A stretch of 64,000 nucleotides of DNA from Ornithinibacillus sp. 4-3 (lineage in GTDB: Bacteria; Bacillota; Bacilli; Bacillales; Amphibacillaceae): contig NZ_CP162599.1 of NCBI RefSeq assembly GCF_040958695.1, positions 3,630,001 through 3,694,000 of the forward strand. The letters are read 5' to 3'. The notes below the pieces were generated by a model. That model was not told the DNA's origin, searched no databases, and was given only the letters and a program-made list of their open reading frames with translations. Positions 1,302 to 41,174 of the stretch are shown piece after piece (positions within the stretch are counted from its first letter, which is position 1; each line of letters opens with the position of its first letter). The position numbers and the translations under genes were made by a program.

Positions 1302-2102
1302 ATGGATAACAAAGATCGTGTCATTGAAAATGGCTGGGAAACTGTACGATTCCATGGAGAGGATTTTTCAATAGAGGAAGAAACGATTGCGATTGAGTTT
1401 CCAATAACGGTGATGTTAAATGGGGAAGAATTTGCTACCATGGTTTGCTCACCAATAGATGTAAGAGAACTGATTATCGGGTTTCTTGCTTCTGAAGGTA
1501 TTATTCGCACCTTTAAGGAAATAGATCAACTATCGATTGATCAGGATCGTGGATTTGCTTATATCGAAATTAGCAAGCCCTTAGACCATCTACAACATGA
1601 TCATTCAAAACGCTTTATTGGTTCCTGCTGTGGTAAGAGCCGTCAGTTTTATTTTAAAAGCGATGTGCAAACTGCTAAAACCATTAGGAGTAAATTGTCC
1701 ATGACCGCCCAACAATGCATGGCATTAATGCAGCAATTACAAAGTCAGTCAGAGCATTTCCAGCAAACAGGCGGTGTGCATAATGCAGCACTCTGTACAG
1801 TAGATGAGCTGCTGGCTATCCGCACAGATATTGGACGACATAATGCATTAGATAAAATATATGGATATATTTTAGAACAACGAATTCCCCTTGCAGATAA
1901 AGTGATTGCCTTTAGTGGACGAATTTCATCAGAAGTGCTATTGAAAATTTCCAAAATGGGAATTGGGATTATTATTTCTAAGTCTGCACCTACTGATTTA
2001 GCATTGAAACTAGCGGATGACTTAGGTATCACTGCCATTGGATTCGCTCGCCGTAATAAAATGAATGTATATACACATGCTTATCGAATTAAGAGTAATT
2101 AA
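1302..2102 (+). CDS. fdhD: FdhD, sulfurtransferase for formate dehydrogenase molybdenum cofactor
   Basis: 266 residues, the normal length. FdhD carries sulfur from a cysteine desulfurase to bis-MGD before the cofactor is inserted into FdhF-type enzymes. Family blocks seen: FPITVMLNGEEFATMVCSP near residue 32, the Cys pair in GSCCGKS near residue 106 (the cysteine loop, here adjacent cysteines as I recall for bacilli rather than the CxxC of E. coli), GGVHNAALC near 157 and DIGRHNALDKIYG near 176. The start lies one base after the upstream oxidoreductase stop, so the two are almost certainly translationally coupled and co-transcribed. No second gene follows before the hairpin at 2107-2139. Confidence 0.95.
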   Translation: MDNKDRVIENGWETVRFHGEDFSIEEETIAIEFPITVMLNGEEFATMVCSPIDVRELIIGFLASEGIIRTFKEIDQLSIDQDRGFAYIEISKPLDHLQHDHSKRFIGSCCGKSRQFYFKSDVQTAKTIRSKLSMTAQQCMALMQQLQSQSEHFQQTGGVHNAALCTVDELLAIRTDIGRHNALDKIYGYILEQRIPLADKVIAFSGRISSEVLLKISKMGIGIIISKSAPTDLALKLADDLGITAIGFARRNKMNVYTHAYRIKSN

Positions 2103-2106
2103 CAAA

Positions 2107-2139
2107 AATCCCGCTCCAGAATTACTCTAGAGCGGGATT
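2107..2139. terminator. Rho-independent terminator between convergent fdhD and asnB-like gene
   Basis: Perfect 10-bp arms AATCCCGCTC (2107-2116) and GAGCGGGATT (2130-2139). Read on the minus strand the stem is followed by TTTTTG, so it serves asnB best; on the plus strand the T-tract is poor, but the stem may also stop fdhD transcripts. Confidence 0.85.
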
Positions 2140-2147
2140 AACTTTGA

Positions 2148-4010
2148 TTATATTCTCACCACTTTATCCACCAAGCTAAAATCATACTTTTCTTCTACAA
2201 AGATTTGATACCATAACATAAACATTAGGACAGTCCAAATTTTTCGCGAATAGTCACCTTTACCTGATACATGGCGTTCTAAAAGCTTTTTAACATAGGA
2301 TTTATGCAAAATATGCCCTGTATCACTTTCATCAATAAGTTGCACTGCCCAGTCGTATATCTCATTCTTCAGCCAGTGACGGATAGGAACTGGAAATCCT
2401 AGCTTCGCTCGATGCACTACATCTTTTGGAATATTCGCTGCAAAAGTTTCACGTAACAATGCTTTAGTTAATGCTCCATTTACTTTGTCTTCTACAGGAA
2501 GCATACGCGCAACATTATATACTTCTTTATCTAAGAAGGGCGAACGTAACTCAATCTGATTTGCTTGAGACATTCGTTTCGCTTTTAATAAGATATCTCC
2601 CCGTAACCAAGTATGTAAATCAATGTATTGCATCTGATGTACAGGATGTTCTTTTCGTACTTCATTATAGTACTGCCTTGTAACCATTTGATAGCATAAA
2701 TCTTCATTATAATTTTTCAATATGCTGCGCTTTTCCTCTTCTTCAAACATCTTGGCATTCCCAATATATCGTTCTTCTAACGGTGTTGTTCCACGAAGCA
2801 GGAAGCTCTTGCCTTTTACACCCTCTGGTAAAATCATCGCTAATCGATGCAATAGCTTATTAATGGGTTTAGGAATACTTTCAAAAATCTTCAATGATTG
2901 TGGCTCGCAATAGATATTATACCCACCAAATAGCTCGTCTGCTCCTTCTCCAGACATTACAATATTCACTTCTTTTTTGGCTTCACGTAAAACAAAATAA
3001 AGAGGAACACAGGCTGGATCTGCTAATGGGTCTCCCATTTGCCACATGATTTTAGGGAGATTCTCTAAATACTCCTGGGCTGTGACTGTATAGGAAATAT
3101 TTTCTAAGCCAAGTTCAGCCGCTGTCTGCTCGGCCAAAGAGATTTCTGAAAAATCTTGACGCTCAAATCCAACAGAAAATGTTTTGATATTCGGTTGAAA
3201 TGTTTTAGCCAAGGAAGCAATAATCGTTGAATCTACACCACCTGACAAAAGTGTTCCTAACGGCTGATCACTTTGCATATGAACACGTACAGATTCTGTG
3301 ATCGTCTCGCGCACTTTATTTATTAATCTGCTTCGTTCTGTTAGGATGGGGTCAAATGTCGGTTGAAAGTATCTCGTAAAGTGAATTGGTTTGTCCATCT
3401 CTTTAACAAAATAACTAGCTGCTTCTACCTGTTTAATCTCTGCTGTTAATGTATATGGGCTTGGAACATATTGATAAGTTAAATAATGCTGCAATGCATC
3501 TGTATCCATTGCTGATTCATCAGTGAGTGCTAATAAATTTTGCTTATCTGTTGCAAAGCTTATGTCTTTCTCATGATTGGTATAGTATAGAGATTCCATT
3601 CCGAAGCAATCTCTCGCTCCATATAATGTTTTTGTCTCACGATCCCAAATTAAGATGGCAAAAGCACCTCGAAGACGCGAAAACATTTGCACACCTTCTT
3701 GAATAAATAAGGCGCCAAGCACTTCTAAATCAGATCCTGTTTGACATGTAACTTCGCACTCCTCCAAGGAAGCGCGAAGTTCTGAAATATTATAAATTGT
3801 TCCATTAAATAAGAGAACATAACGATTCTGCTGAAAATGATATAGCTGATCCAACTCTTGAGAGCTGAACGCAATAGGTACATCAATATAATCTAAATTA
3901 CTATCCTGGTTATCAGAATGGACTACTCTTAATTTCTTTTGCATATCTTCAAACATTTTTTCATTAAAGGGATAATCATTTTCATGTAATAAAGCTAGAA
4001 ATCCACTCAT
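2148..4010 (-). CDS. AsnB-type asparagine synthetase-like amidotransferase lacking the N-terminal catalytic Cys
   Basis: 620 residues, full length for class II glutamine-hydrolysing asparagine synthetase. The C-terminal ATP-dependent half looks intact: SGGVDST pyrophosphate loop at 256-262, GEGADELFGGY near 355, RSPFLDKEV and KLGFPVPIRHWL further on. The N-terminal Ntn glutaminase half is present but degenerate: the protein begins M-S-G-F where the family needs M-C-G, the HRGPD and (H)xRLSI segments are unrecognisable, and FNGEIYN reads FNGTIYN (68-74), although GSD (92-94) remains. Glutamine hydrolysis is therefore unlikely; it may use free ammonia, a partner glutaminase or another substrate. 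The ATG lies 23 bp after the anti-sigma stop with AAAGGA 9 nt upstream, so it is probably the third gene of the sigma/anti-sigma operon. AsnB in B. subtilis amidates meso-diaminopimelate of peptidoglycan; an envelope role here is inference. Confidence 0.85.
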   Translation of the reverse strand: MSGFLALLHENDYPFNEKMFEDMQKKLRVVHSDNQDSNLDYIDVPIAFSSQELDQLYHFQQNRYVLLFNGTIYNISELRASLEECEVTCQTGSDLEVLGALFIQEGVQMFSRLRGAFAILIWDRETKTLYGARDCFGMESLYYTNHEKDISFATDKQNLLALTDESAMDTDALQHYLTYQYVPSPYTLTAEIKQVEAASYFVKEMDKPIHFTRYFQPTFDPILTERSRLINKVRETITESVRVHMQSDQPLGTLLSGGVDSTIIASLAKTFQPNIKTFSVGFERQDFSEISLAEQTAAELGLENISYTVTAQEYLENLPKIMWQMGDPLADPACVPLYFVLREAKKEVNIVMSGEGADELFGGYNIYCEPQSLKIFESIPKPINKLLHRLAMILPEGVKGKSFLLRGTTPLEERYIGNAKMFEEEEKRSILKNYNEDLCYQMVTRQYYNEVRKEHPVHQMQYIDLHTWLRGDILLKAKRMSQANQIELRSPFLDKEVYNVARMLPVEDKVNGALTKALLRETFAANIPKDVVHRAKLGFPVPIRHWLKNEIYDWAVQLIDESDTGHILHKSYVKKLLERHVSGKGDYSRKIWTVLMFMLWYQIFVEEKYDFSLVDKVVRI

Positions 4011-4033
4011 TGTCTATTCATCCTTTGTCTGTT

Positions 4034-4891
4034 TTAATTTGGAACAACCTCAAATGTTTCTAACATATAATGAAATCTTGCCCCATGTCCCTCTTCTCCT
4101 ATTTCGAAATACATCTGTTTAATAATGAATACTTGCCCATTTCCAGCTTCTGTCACATAGTAAACATGAACAGGGCTATCTGGTTCAGCTGGATTCCCTT
4201 GTTCTACTGCCCGAATACGTGTAGCTGTAAGAGGCTCTGTTACTTCTTCCGAATAATCGATTTCCATTCCTTCACTTGCAATCTCTTCCTCTACCTCAGC
4301 TAACGCACCTTCTAAGCTTTCTTGTGATGCTGGCTTGATTTCCATTGCCACTTCTGGATACATACCTTCTGGATCTCCAGTGAATTCAATTCTGTCAATA
4401 CCTTCTCCTGGAACAAATTGATAACGCTCCATATCCACATAAATGATATAACGAAGTTCTTCATTTACTGCTAATTCCATCGTGACTTCTTCGGGAATTC
4501 CTTCAATTCCTATCTCTACTTCTATTTCCTGTTCAAACATATCCGCTAAGCTTTGTTCCGGTTCCTCAGTTTCATTAGGATCTTCCCTGTTATCATCTTC
4601 TGGCAAATCTGTATCTTCTCCCGGTATGATAACTTCTGTATCCTCACCTTCTCCTACTTCATTATTTCCATTCATAATATGGAGTAATAATGAAGTAAAT
4701 ATACCTAAAAGCAGGATGGAAGCTAACACTGGTAAGAACTTTAAACTTTTTCTTTTTCTAGGTGCTGATTGCTTTATTTCTGATAAGTTTATGGCTAATT
4801 TTTTTCTATTTTCTACTTGTCGTTCTTCTTTCCAATGCATCTGATGATTCAAATCAGATAATAATTGATCTATGTTATCATGACGTGCCAT
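4034..4891 (-). CDS. Membrane anti-sigma factor-like protein partner of ECF sigma
   Basis: 285 residues. The first ~50 form a charged cytoplasmic segment, residues ~52-72 (FLPVLASILLLGIFTSLLLHI) form one membrane helix, then comes a very acidic linker (about 75-115) and an extracytoplasmic domain of ~170 residues that I do not recognise. No HxxxCxxC zinc anti-sigma motif is visible. The ATG overlaps the end of the sigma gene by 14 bp, the arrangement usual for an ECF sigma factor and its membrane-bound inhibitor. The inferred role is to hold the sigma factor at the inner face of the membrane until an envelope signal arrives. Function is assigned by topology and context only. Confidence 0.75.
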   Translation of the reverse strand: MARHDNIDQLLSDLNHQMHWKEERQVENRKKLAINLSEIKQSAPRKRKSLKFLPVLASILLLGIFTSLLLHIMNGNNEVGEGEDTEVIIPGEDTDLPEDDNREDPNETEEPEQSLADMFEQEIEVEIGIEGIPEEVTMELAVNEELRYIIYVDMERYQFVPGEGIDRIEFTGDPEGMYPEVAMEIKPASQESLEGALAEVEEEIASEGMEIDYSEEVTEPLTATRIRAVEQGNPAEPDSPVHVYYVTEAGNGQVFIIKQMYFEIGEEGHGARFHYMLETFEVVPN

Positions 4892-5399
4892 GCATAAAAC
4901 CCCCTTTTACTAATTGTTTCTCTAAGGCGTGTAAAGCACGAAATAATGTTGATTTCACTTTGCTTTCTGACCAATTCAAAATACTTGCTGTATCAGCAAT
5001 GGAAAACTCTTCTATTTTACGAAGTATGATCACTTGTTTATAGGCTGGCTTTAGCTTGCGTATCGCTAAAAACAACTCCTTTGATTCCTCACGCACTTCC
5101 ATAATATCTTCTACAGAAGCTCCCTCATCCTTCGCAAATAGCTCCTTTACAAAATCAATTGGTTTTTGTTTCCGTAAATAATCAATTGTTACATTATGGG
5201 CAATACGAAATAAAAATGTCTTCGGATATTGAATTTGATTTTTCTCTATATATTGAAATGCTTTTAAAAAGGTTTCTTGCATAATATCTTCTGCTTGATA
5301 GCCGTCTTTTATCATACTCGCGATATACTTCACGATCAGGTCACTGTACTCGTCATACCAACTCAATATAAGTTCTCTATTTTCTGTTTGGATCGACAT
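4878..5399 (-). CDS. ECF-type RNA polymerase sigma factor
   Basis: 173 residues from the ATG at 5399. Region 2 covers about residues 20-75 (DGYQAEDIMQETFLKAF, then TFLFRIAHNVTIDYLRK, the -10 recognition helix); region 4 covers about 110-160 (LKPAYKQVIILRKIEEFSI, then a helix-turn-helix with WSESKVKSTLFRAL). The frame is open back to an ATG at 5432, but the start at 5399 has GGAGGT 6 nt upstream and the ECF promoter at 5439-5463 would put the RNA start close to 5432, so the short form is preferred. It overlaps the anti-sigma gene. The subgroup (SigM/V/W-like) cannot be fixed by eye. Confidence 0.92.
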   Translation of the reverse strand: MSIQTENRELILSWYDEYSDLIVKYIASMIKDGYQAEDIMQETFLKAFQYIEKNQIQYPKTFLFRIAHNVTIDYLRKQKPIDFVKELFAKDEGASVEDIMEVREESKELFLAIRKLKPAYKQVIILRKIEEFSIADTASILNWSESKVKSTLFRALHALEKQLVKGGFMHGTS

Positions 5400-5438
5400 A
5401 CATAGACCTCCTTCCTTTCCTGCTCTGTTCATTGTATA

Positions 5439-5463
5439 GACGGGACATCCATATGAAAGTTGC
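5439..5463 (-). promoter_or_regulatory. ECF-type promoter for the sigma/anti-sigma/asnB-like operon
   Basis: On the minus strand GCAAC (5463-5459) is followed, 16 nt after the AAC, by CGTC (5442-5439). This is the AAC-N16-CGT layout of Bacillus ECF promoters and lies about 40 nt upstream of the sigma start codon, suggesting autoregulation. Inference from spacing and motif; no transcript data. Confidence 0.65.
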
Positions 5464-5489
5464 GTTTTTCGATTTATTTTTCACAAAAA

Positions 5490-5538
5490 AATCAAGCGAG
5501 GTAAAAAAGCTATAGATGCTTTTTACTCTCGCTTGATT
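5490..5538 (-). terminator. Rho-independent terminator of the Usp-domain gene
   Basis: A long hairpin with arms AATCAAGCGAG + GTAAAAAAGC and GCTTTTTAC + TCTCGCTTGATT, overlapping the stop codon of the minus-strand gene. On the minus strand it is followed by TTTTTTTG. Confidence 0.85.
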
Positions 5539-6218
5539 TATTCTTTATCCATATTTGGCGGTTGGGTAATTTCCTCACGCACTTTATTATCATCAATATG
5601 CACTTGTGAGGTTATACCTTTACATACAAATTTAAATACTCCGTTATTAAAATCTGTTCCTATTTCCTTATAGAAAATACCTTCATATTCATTTCGCTTT
5701 GATCTAGTAAAGCTTAACTCATAGCCTTCTTCCGTATATTGCAGGAATCCACGAACTCCTTTTTCATATTGAGTATCCGAGTTACTCTTAATTGAACGAT
5801 CCACTGAAACAATATGTAGATCAATAAATGAAGAAATTTCTCGCTGCAAAGCACTCACAAATGAACCTTTTGTAATTTCTTCCCAACGATTTATTGGTGT
5901 TTGCCCAATCACAATTTGTGTCACATGATGACTATAGGCCACTTCTTTAATGACTTTTACAGCTGGTCGTGACTCATTGTCCATTAAAATAAATTCATCA
6001 ACTTCCAATTCCTCACATAGCTCTTTCCAACGGTCAATGTATTCAGCTTTTTCCGCATCAAACTCATCAAGCGGTAATGGATCAACGGTTAATACATACA
6101 TTGGACAATTTATAAGCTGTGCCAATATGTGACCTCGTTTAATTAGTCGTTCCCCATTTGGACCATAGTACACACACACTAGAATACTCTCGTCCACATG
6201 GTCATTAAATTTGACCAC
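5538..6218 (-). CDS. KdpD-type universal-stress-protein-domain protein (no kinase domain)
   Basis: 226 residues. The first ~145 resemble the cytoplasmic Usp-like domain of the sensor KdpD: ESILVCVYYGPNGERLIKRG at the N-terminus, LINCPMYVLTVDP, FDAEKAEYIDRWKELCEEL, and a nucleotide-loop-like stretch TQIVIGQTPINRWEEITKG. The remaining ~80 residues are unrecognised. There is no histidine kinase domain, so it is a stand-alone domain rather than a sensor kinase. The start is GTG at 6218 with GAGGTG 8 nt upstream. It is transcribed away from the mrp operon across a 516-bp gap; KdpD senses K+/ionic conditions, so a link to cation homeostasis is plausible but unproven. Confidence 0.75.
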   Translation of the reverse strand: MVKFNDHVDESILVCVYYGPNGERLIKRGHILAQLINCPMYVLTVDPLPLDEFDAEKAEYIDRWKELCEELEVDEFILMDNESRPAVKVIKEVAYSHHVTQIVIGQTPINRWEEITKGSFVSALQREISSFIDLHIVSVDRSIKSNSDTQYEKGVRGFLQYTEEGYELSFTRSKRNEYEGIFYKEIGTDFNNGVFKFVCKGITSQVHIDDNKVREEITQPPNMDKE

Positions 6219-40940: not shown

Positions 40941-41174
40941 TGTTCAAAAAGTTTGAGAAAAAGGATCGTCATCGGTTAAGTTCGCAACGTTACGAAAGCA
41001 ACATCTGCACTAGTATATCCTGTAGTCGTGTGCGTCGGAAGTTCGAGGGTAGCGCAGCTTTGAGTAGCGGACTTGCATGTGTTTGTGATGACTTCGATAT
41101 TCGACACAGGGCGTGTCGGAACTTAGTCGAAGTTCCTTTGTTTGATGTGTCATTTTTATTAGACTTTTTGAACA
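40941..41174. mobile_element. MITE-like element with 12-bp terminal inverted repeats
   Basis: 234 bp bounded by TGTTCAAAAAGT (40941-40952) and ACTTTTTGAACA (41163-41174), perfect inverted repeats. The inside is GC-richer than the flanks and contains a hairpin at 41091-41133 (ACTTCGA...TCGAAGT with CGACAC...GTGTCG). No coding capacity is supported. No clear target-site duplication is visible. From memory, elements with TTCAAAAAG ends of this length recur in halotolerant bacilli, which suggests a non-autonomous transposable element. Confidence 0.7.

Follow-up and report, generated by a model that had tools for sequence, protein, structure and literature searches.

An ECF sigma/anti-sigma operon in Ornithinibacillus sp. 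4-3 with an AsnB-type protein bearing a degraded glutaminase domain

Two kinds of described system come close to the locus treated here, an operon on a 64,000-nucleotide stretch of Ornithinibacillus sp. 4-3 (contig NZ_CP162599.1, positions 3,630,001 to 3,694,000; hereafter the window) that encodes an extracytoplasmic function (ECF) sigma factor, a membrane anti-sigma factor and an AsnB-type protein. The closest in layout is the sigV-rsiV-oatA-yrhK operon of B. subtilis, in which an autoregulated ECF sigma factor and its membrane anti-sigma factor are followed by a peptidoglycan-modifying enzyme (PMC8287880). The other is the set of AsnB enzymes that amidate meso-diaminopimelic acid (meso-DAP): AsnB homologues form clades, and no member of the clade of AsnH, AsnO and E. 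coli AsnB is among those proven to amidate meso-DAP (PMC8554201). The same source gives this activity as proven for Listeria AsnB, cites B. subtilis AsnB as doing likewise, and describes an extra loop at the substrate region together with the lack of the Asp-binding D and R of asparagine synthetases. No description of an ECF-sigma/anti-sigma/AsnB arrangement was found in the open-access literature searched, the main ECF re-classification paper being outside that scope.

The window locus is a genuine operon, conserved among relatives; it varies a known layout, and its enzyme has undergone a recurrent and unexpected change. On the minus strand, the sigma gene is followed by the anti-sigma gene and then by the AsnB-type gene, all three open reading frames (ORFs) being open (Table 1); the first two overlap by 14 bp, and 23 bp separate the anti-sigma stop codon from the AsnB-type start at 4010, a gap where a consensus terminator scan found no terminator-like site. 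The initial annotation had described these ORFs with their overlap, their terminator-free gap and a closing terminator, had read them as an operon, and had called the last product Cys-less and linked it through AsnB to meso-DAP; all of this is borne out at the level of the sequence. The three genes are probably co-transcribed and under stress control. We favour, with a probability of roughly 0.55, the explanation that this is an envelope-stress operon producing a stress-induced, ammonia-dependent peptidoglycan (meso-DAP) amidase; the gene order, the domains, the conservation of the arrangement, the grouping with metK-linked AsnBs and the loss of glutaminase residues all argue for it.

Table 1. 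Features of the operon and its surroundings, in window coordinates.
Feature	Position	Strand	Details
ECF sigma factor, 173 aa, regions 2 and 4	4878..5399	-	Pfam Sigma70_r2 4.5e-15, Sigma70_r4_2 1.4e-13
Membrane anti-sigma factor, 285 aa	4034..4891	-	predicted model; C-terminal domain shared by 23 relatives
AsnB-type protein, 620 aa: degenerate class II glutaminase and intact Asn_synthase domain	2148..4010	-	Pfam PF00733 5.1e-98; GATase_7
Intrinsic terminator of the operon	2107..2139	-	hairpin and T-run; -24.3 kcal/mol, z -7.5, 0/200 shuffles as good
Putative ECF-type promoter CAACTTT-N12-CCGTCTA	5437..5462	-	~37 bases before sigma start; AAC-N16-CGT core
Intrinsic terminator of upstream KdpD-like gene	about 5489..5539	-	-25.2 kcal/mol, z -7.66, 0/200 shuffles as good; T-run
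KdpD-like protein gene, C-terminal extension	5538..6218	-	102 bits vs model cut-off 550
fdhD	1302..2102		
Bacillaceae-1 RNA	41083..41142	-	36.7 vs gathering score 35, barely above

According to this explanation, the anti-sigma factor would tether its sigma partner to the membrane until a signal at the extracytoplasmic domain of the anti-sigma frees it; the freed sigma would transcribe its own operon and thereby raise the amount of the AsnB-like enzyme. This enzyme would use ATP to activate, and would then amidate, a carboxylate that is most probably the epsilon-carboxyl of meso-DAP in the precursors of peptidoglycan. The nitrogen would be free ammonia arriving directly at the synthetase site, because the glutaminase half presumably no longer works; such direct entry is proposed for human ASNS (PMC11615228). 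Amidation would lower the negative charge of the wall and might protect against lysozyme-type attack, by analogy with asnB mutants (PMC8554201). The release of sigma, the acceptor and ammonia as donor are the steps that we infer.

In the AsnB-type protein, the residues aligned with C1, R49, N74, G75, E76 and D98 of E. coli AsnB are S, E, N, G, T and D, Cys-2 having become Ser. With C1, R49 and E76 replaced, the Cys nucleophile of a meso-DAP-amidating AsnB is missing, and the glutaminase, on which the glutamine-dependent amidotransfer of such an enzyme relies, is probably inactive; Arg-49 and Glu-76 are known glutamine-binding positions. The protein passes the NCBIfam model TIGR01536, asparagine synthase (glutamine-hydrolyzing), with 376.2 bits for a cut-off of 267.1, and lacks the N-terminal Cys and the glutamine site of that family, so the automatic name would mislead. 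For residue counts we kept 102 of 116 aligned rows, leaving out 14 truncated or duplicate sequences (L028, L033, L034, L036, L042-L045, L047, L048, L052, L053, L204 and L213); 68 sequences with an intact glutaminase served as reference, ten intact but more distant ones being excluded. The window protein keeps 34 of the 59 N-domain positions conserved in this reference, against 131 of 146 in the synthetase domain.

The acceptor side is well preserved. SGGVDS and DPLADP are kept, and the PP-loop, SGEG and acceptor motifs are intact (in L081 the PP-loop is altered, to SGEVDS), while the E. coli stretch DVTTIRAS reads DPLADPAC in the window, the R being gone (TTIR to LADP). Most of the stretch 365-476 has no counterpart in E. 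coli AsnB; there, the window protein keeps all 32 positions conserved in >=97% of the 68 intact relatives, compared with 26-29 in five intact neighbours of L081, 9-21 in five distant intact proteins and 3 in E. coli; 82 window residues in 372-473 face gaps in E. coli AsnB, the distant types tested being equally long there. In a FastTree tree of the synthetase domain (101 sequences after one identical sequence was dropped, none from B. subtilis or Listeria), the window protein falls inside the group to which the metK-linked AsnBs belong, whereas five intact proteins of more distant type lie outside it; for 38 of the 68 intact members metK is visible as a neighbour, a count limited by short flanks. 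We take metK linkage to mark the B. subtilis AsnB orthologue, and the distant types in the tree to be AsnO/AsnH-like. By this proxy, the window protein would belong to the clade of the proven meso-DAP amidases, apart from AsnH, AsnO and E. coli AsnB.

The same data bear on another reading, in which the protein is an ammonia-dependent asparagine synthetase making free asparagine under stress, for example as an osmolyte or nitrogen store. It would fit the TIGR01536 score, which exceeds the cut-off of an equivalog model, and it would fit the standing of the protein as the sole full-length Asn_synthase protein found in its genome, where the only other match is one of 34 positions just over the family cut-off. 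The grouping with metK-linked AsnBs instead of the distant presumed AsnO/AsnH-like types argues the other way, as does LADP in place of TTIR. No AsnA was found in the genome, and no protein passes the cut-off for asparaginyl-tRNA synthetase (AsnRS) that would use free asparagine in translation (best 125 vs 342.6 bits). Since AsnRS is thus lacking over cut-off and one GatB is present, Asn-tRNA is presumably made by transamidation, without need of free asparagine, and a role in supplying translation was judged unlikely. Free-asparagine synthesis is the least improbable of the alternatives considered here, though an unlikely one. The initial annotation had left the choice between envelope and amino-acid amidation; amino-acid amidation has become less likely with no AsnRS, AsnA or second full-length AsnB.

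Degraded glutaminase sites occur in 22 sequences, 21 of them distinct (L217 and P0023 are the same protein); this number is no rate because divergent AsnB copies were deliberately picked among the matches. In L200, L217, P0014 and P0023, the Cys is present but Arg-49 is gone. The degraded sequences sit at about five tree positions, namely the window clade, L081, L205 (whose gene has kept its place beside metK), L210 and a group of Ornithinibacillus type in which one member, L197, is intact; by tree position, glutaminase decay appears to be recurrent. We mapped the ammonia-tunnel residues of human ASNS (PMC11615228) through the alignment. Among the 22 degraded sequences, changes on the glutaminase side affect N74 in 12, E76 in 19, V119 in 10, V141 in 9, the gate residue R142 in 6 and its partners D405 and E414 in 16 and 9; mid-tunnel, L255 is changed in 9 and L415 in 5; on the synthetase side, M344, S362, E364 and V401 are never changed and A404 in 3. 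In the window protein, the gate charges are swapped, K to E at 139 and D to K at 478. The N-domain tunnel set is more variable than other conserved positions (p = 0.01), a test that is partly circular because E76 and N74 also defined the degraded set. The most changed positions, picked post hoc, are M482, V249 and V490, lost in 22, 20 and 18 of the 22 degraded sequences and kept in 68, 66 and 67 of the 68 intact ones.

Beta-lactam synthetase and CarA are natural glutaminase-dead relatives of AsnB, with a synthetase half lacking a working N-terminal Cys, and the beta-lactam and carbapenam synthetases use amines other than ammonia. The window protein could likewise be an amine ligase, its activated carboxylate being attacked by an amine other than ammonia: the loss of M482, V249 and V490 could open a new entry route, and the protein has a CarA_N match, below cut-off (19.5 vs 21 bits). 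The replacements, however, differ by lineage, which makes relaxation more likely than a new shared pocket, and little has changed in the acceptor region or in the tunnel positions on the synthetase side; we regard this as rather improbable. Glutamine might also still feed the enzyme, if a separate glutaminase acts as its partner in trans or if the N-terminal domain harbours a cryptic alternative nucleophile; this domain has been kept and, in the tested group, shows some constraint (ratio of nonsynonymous to synonymous substitution rates, dN/dS, 0.13-0.28). With the Arg-49 and Glu-76 positions replaced in the window and no glutaminase gene in the operon, this is the least probable of the readings we weighed.

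In the N domain, four glutaminase-degraded pairs give dN/dS values of 0.13-0.28, compared with 0.03-0.26 for 11 intact pairs; in the synthetase domain, three degraded pairs (one of them saturated) give 0.09-0.10 and the intact pairs, two of which are saturated there, 0.02-0.11. Many synonymous distances are near saturation. These values show purifying selection in one tested group of glutaminase-degraded relatives. Such selection tells against the view that the gene is decaying or that its product is a regulatory relic devoid of catalysis, as do the full-length frame with its intact PP-loop, SGEG and acceptor motifs and a full-length copy, 97% identical, on another contig (P0001). Decay or a relic would account for the disrupted or remnant AsnB found at the equivalent place in relatives (L066/L093, L072/L096) and for the frequent absence of AsnB; we hold this to be quite improbable. 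In 13 genomes with a degraded AsnB, no second close-type match was found at E <= 1e-60 (7 of the 13 have a second match, 36-37% identical), so that the degraded form seems to stand in for the canonical enzyme instead of backing it up.

The arrangement was followed in relatives by two overlapping surveys. In the first, the anti-sigma factor was sought in 159 genomes of the same family, 30 of which match, the window's own included; for 23 of the remaining 29 genomes (E <= 1e-16), the best match was taken together with flanks of about 5 kb in either direction, leaving out six weak genomes (E above 1e-6) and the second, weak match of G001. At 12 of the resulting 24 loci, window included, an AsnB gene lies on the same strand within 200 bases after the anti-sigma gene (interrupted in L072), and at one (L066) a remnant does, where a random neighbour would be AsnB in roughly 1 case in 3000, a rough estimate from about one AsnB per genome and not a computed figure. 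The arrangement is thus present in relatives, whose lack of it the initial annotation had named as grounds for dropping its reading. The second survey, of named species genomes, gave 127 relatives, and at 12 of the best 80 loci AsnB lies downstream; two of these are broken (L093, Oceanobacillus profundus; L096, Virgibacillus sp.), and the ten others belong to Oceanobacillus, Virgibacillus and Halobacillus. The pair sits between metK and asnB in Virgibacillus subterraneus and V. litoralis, two Halobacillus have sigma-anti-sigma-asnB, and a trio in L206 (4977-8341) consists of a SigX-like sigma (140 bits, cut-off 260), an anti-sigma without family match and an intact AsnB; in L117, the AsnB is of another type and its place is upstream. 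The window AsnB shares 44-53% identity with 11 aligned ECF-linked relatives. ECF-linked AsnBs occupy separate places in the tree, several of its branches being weakly supported: the window clade, L081 (of the same genus as the window), an Oceanobacillus/Ornithinibacillus group, the Virgibacillus metK copies and Halobacillus. Judging from these positions, AsnB seems to have been joined to ECF pairs on more than one occasion.

The regulatory pair shows a different pattern of conservation at its two ends. The sigma factor has regions 2 and 4 only and adjoins a membrane anti-sigma, as expected of an ECF factor; its nearest NCBIfam model is the SigM subfamily (104 bits, below the cut-off of 147.95). 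In an AlphaFold2 model of the anti-sigma factor (mean predicted local distance difference test 82.6, sensor domain mostly >90), an N-terminal helix (4-42) is followed by one membrane-length helix (53-74), an acidic linker of low confidence and, at about 113-283, a confidently modelled alpha/beta extracytoplasmic domain, the C-terminal domain being the part kept in the 23 relatives. No Pfam family passes its cut-off on this protein, and at E up to 1 only DUF5105 appears (13.9 bits vs cut-off 30). The sensor domain is about 32-49% identical to those of relatives, against only 22-30% between the window sigma and those of 14 relatives; the simplest reading is that sensor and enzyme were kept and the sigma end was exchanged, fast divergence being the alternative. 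A fourth member is often a DUF421 (YetF-type) membrane protein gene, next in several of the 24 family loci and downstream in 10 of the 80 named ones (e.g., L062:7529-8185), including the AsnB-less L091, L097 and L102; there is none at the window locus, and two distant relatives (27-30% identity) lie elsewhere in the genome. The loss of glutaminase residues past the Cys, the tunnel change, their recurrence, the sensor shared with differing sigmas and the DUF421 member elsewhere all go beyond the initial annotation.

In the Ornithinibacillus-type loci L195, L196, L198, L200, L201 and L197 (the last with an intact glutaminase), AsnB, sometimes with DUF421, adjoins Mur-ligase-like and ATP-grasp-like proteins; GGDEF and Asp/Glu-racemase-like proteins occur in several of them (Pfam was run on L200 only, and the racemase was recognized by eye). 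This neighbourhood is a possible cell-wall amino-acid cluster. The fdhD gene lies beside or near the operon or its AsnB in the window and likewise in L074, L072 and L211, and its proximity in several genomes suggests a shared ancestral location.

At the upstream end of the operon, GGAAGGAGG precedes the sigma ATG at 5399, a second in-frame ATG lying upstream at 5432. The putative promoter, which we label ECF-type from the Bacillus ECF consensus, occurs once with zero mismatches in the 3.69-Mb genome; its use, and autoregulation of the operon through it, would fit the proposed scheme. Further upstream, a terminator separates the operon from the KdpD-like gene and insulates it; this hairpin was overlooked by the consensus scan, which returned 4 sites for a mean of 3.4 in shuffles, i.e., no excess, so that the fold is the stronger evidence for terminators. 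The KdpD-like gene is itself divergent from a putative Mrp-type antiporter set.

Several results weigh against the explanation by a stress-induced meso-DAP amidase. The AAC-CGT core precedes only 4 of the 44 sigma genes scanned, and at <=2 mismatches the promoter pattern gives 18 sites in the window's own genome vs 17 in the control, so that no wider sigma regulon is detectable; such a regulon was rejected there, the sole 1-mismatch site lying inside an ABC-transporter gene, ~2.1 kb upstream of a DUF421-type gene. The anti-sigma profile matched no solved structure (PDB) by sequence, RsiV included, and a sensor related to RsiV was rejected on the same search, the best PDB matches being unrelated at E about 1. 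As a set, the C-domain tunnel positions show no significant excess of variability over the other conserved positions (p = 0.20), and preferential loss of synthetase-domain tunnel positions as a general rule was rejected on this value. The degraded pairs used for dN/dS all come from the Ornithinibacillus-type group, three of the four sharing sequences and none being of the window lineage. At E <= 1e-60, 50 of the 159 family genomes have no AsnB match, and such an enzyme is therefore dispensable. Finally, no AsnB lies downstream at 11 of the 24 family loci and at 68 of the best 80 named ones, a few of which end close behind the anti-sigma gene; Sporosarcina, Psychrobacillus, Paenibacillus and other listed loci have none, those of L137, L143, L166 and L169 ending close behind it. 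The sensor therefore has other partners: judging by gene neighbourhoods, it is broad, and AsnB is its lineage-bound output.

One has to keep in mind what these observations mean beyond a single locus. The operon would link an ECF envelope sensor to the amidation of peptidoglycan stem peptides, and its degraded relatives are natural experiments on an N-terminal nucleophile (Ntn) glutaminase domain and its ammonia tunnel once glutamine is unused; they also call for caution, as the name "asparagine synthase (glutamine-hydrolyzing)" may be wrong on both counts for a protein that carries it. A wider and more tentative idea, which we would not back at even odds, is that cell-wall AsnBs repeatedly shed their glutamine half to become stress-induced ligases of ammonia or a small amine onto stem peptides, the sensor being re-wired to different sigmas and the enzyme kept as output.

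Set beside the known systems, the window protein shares with the meso-DAP-amidating AsnBs of B. subtilis, Listeria monocytogenes and Lactobacillus plantarum (AsnB1) the synthetase group, as judged by metK linkage, and may also share with them the acceptor-side insertion and the altered Asp-binding stretch (PMC8554201). Unlike them, it has lost its glutaminase residues, and its gene stands behind an ECF sigma/anti-sigma pair and not behind metK. With the E. coli AsnB C1A variant, whose structure is mentioned in PMC11615228, and with beta-lactam synthetase and CarA, it shares a synthetase half lacking a working N-terminal Cys; here, the loss is natural, recurrent and placed within the cell-wall AsnB group. 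As for the sigV operon, the window operon parallels sigV-oatA with a different chemistry: its sigma is not closest to SigV, its anti-sigma lacks a sensor recognizable as RsiV-type, finding no RsiV structure by sequence, and its output enzyme is AsnB-type.

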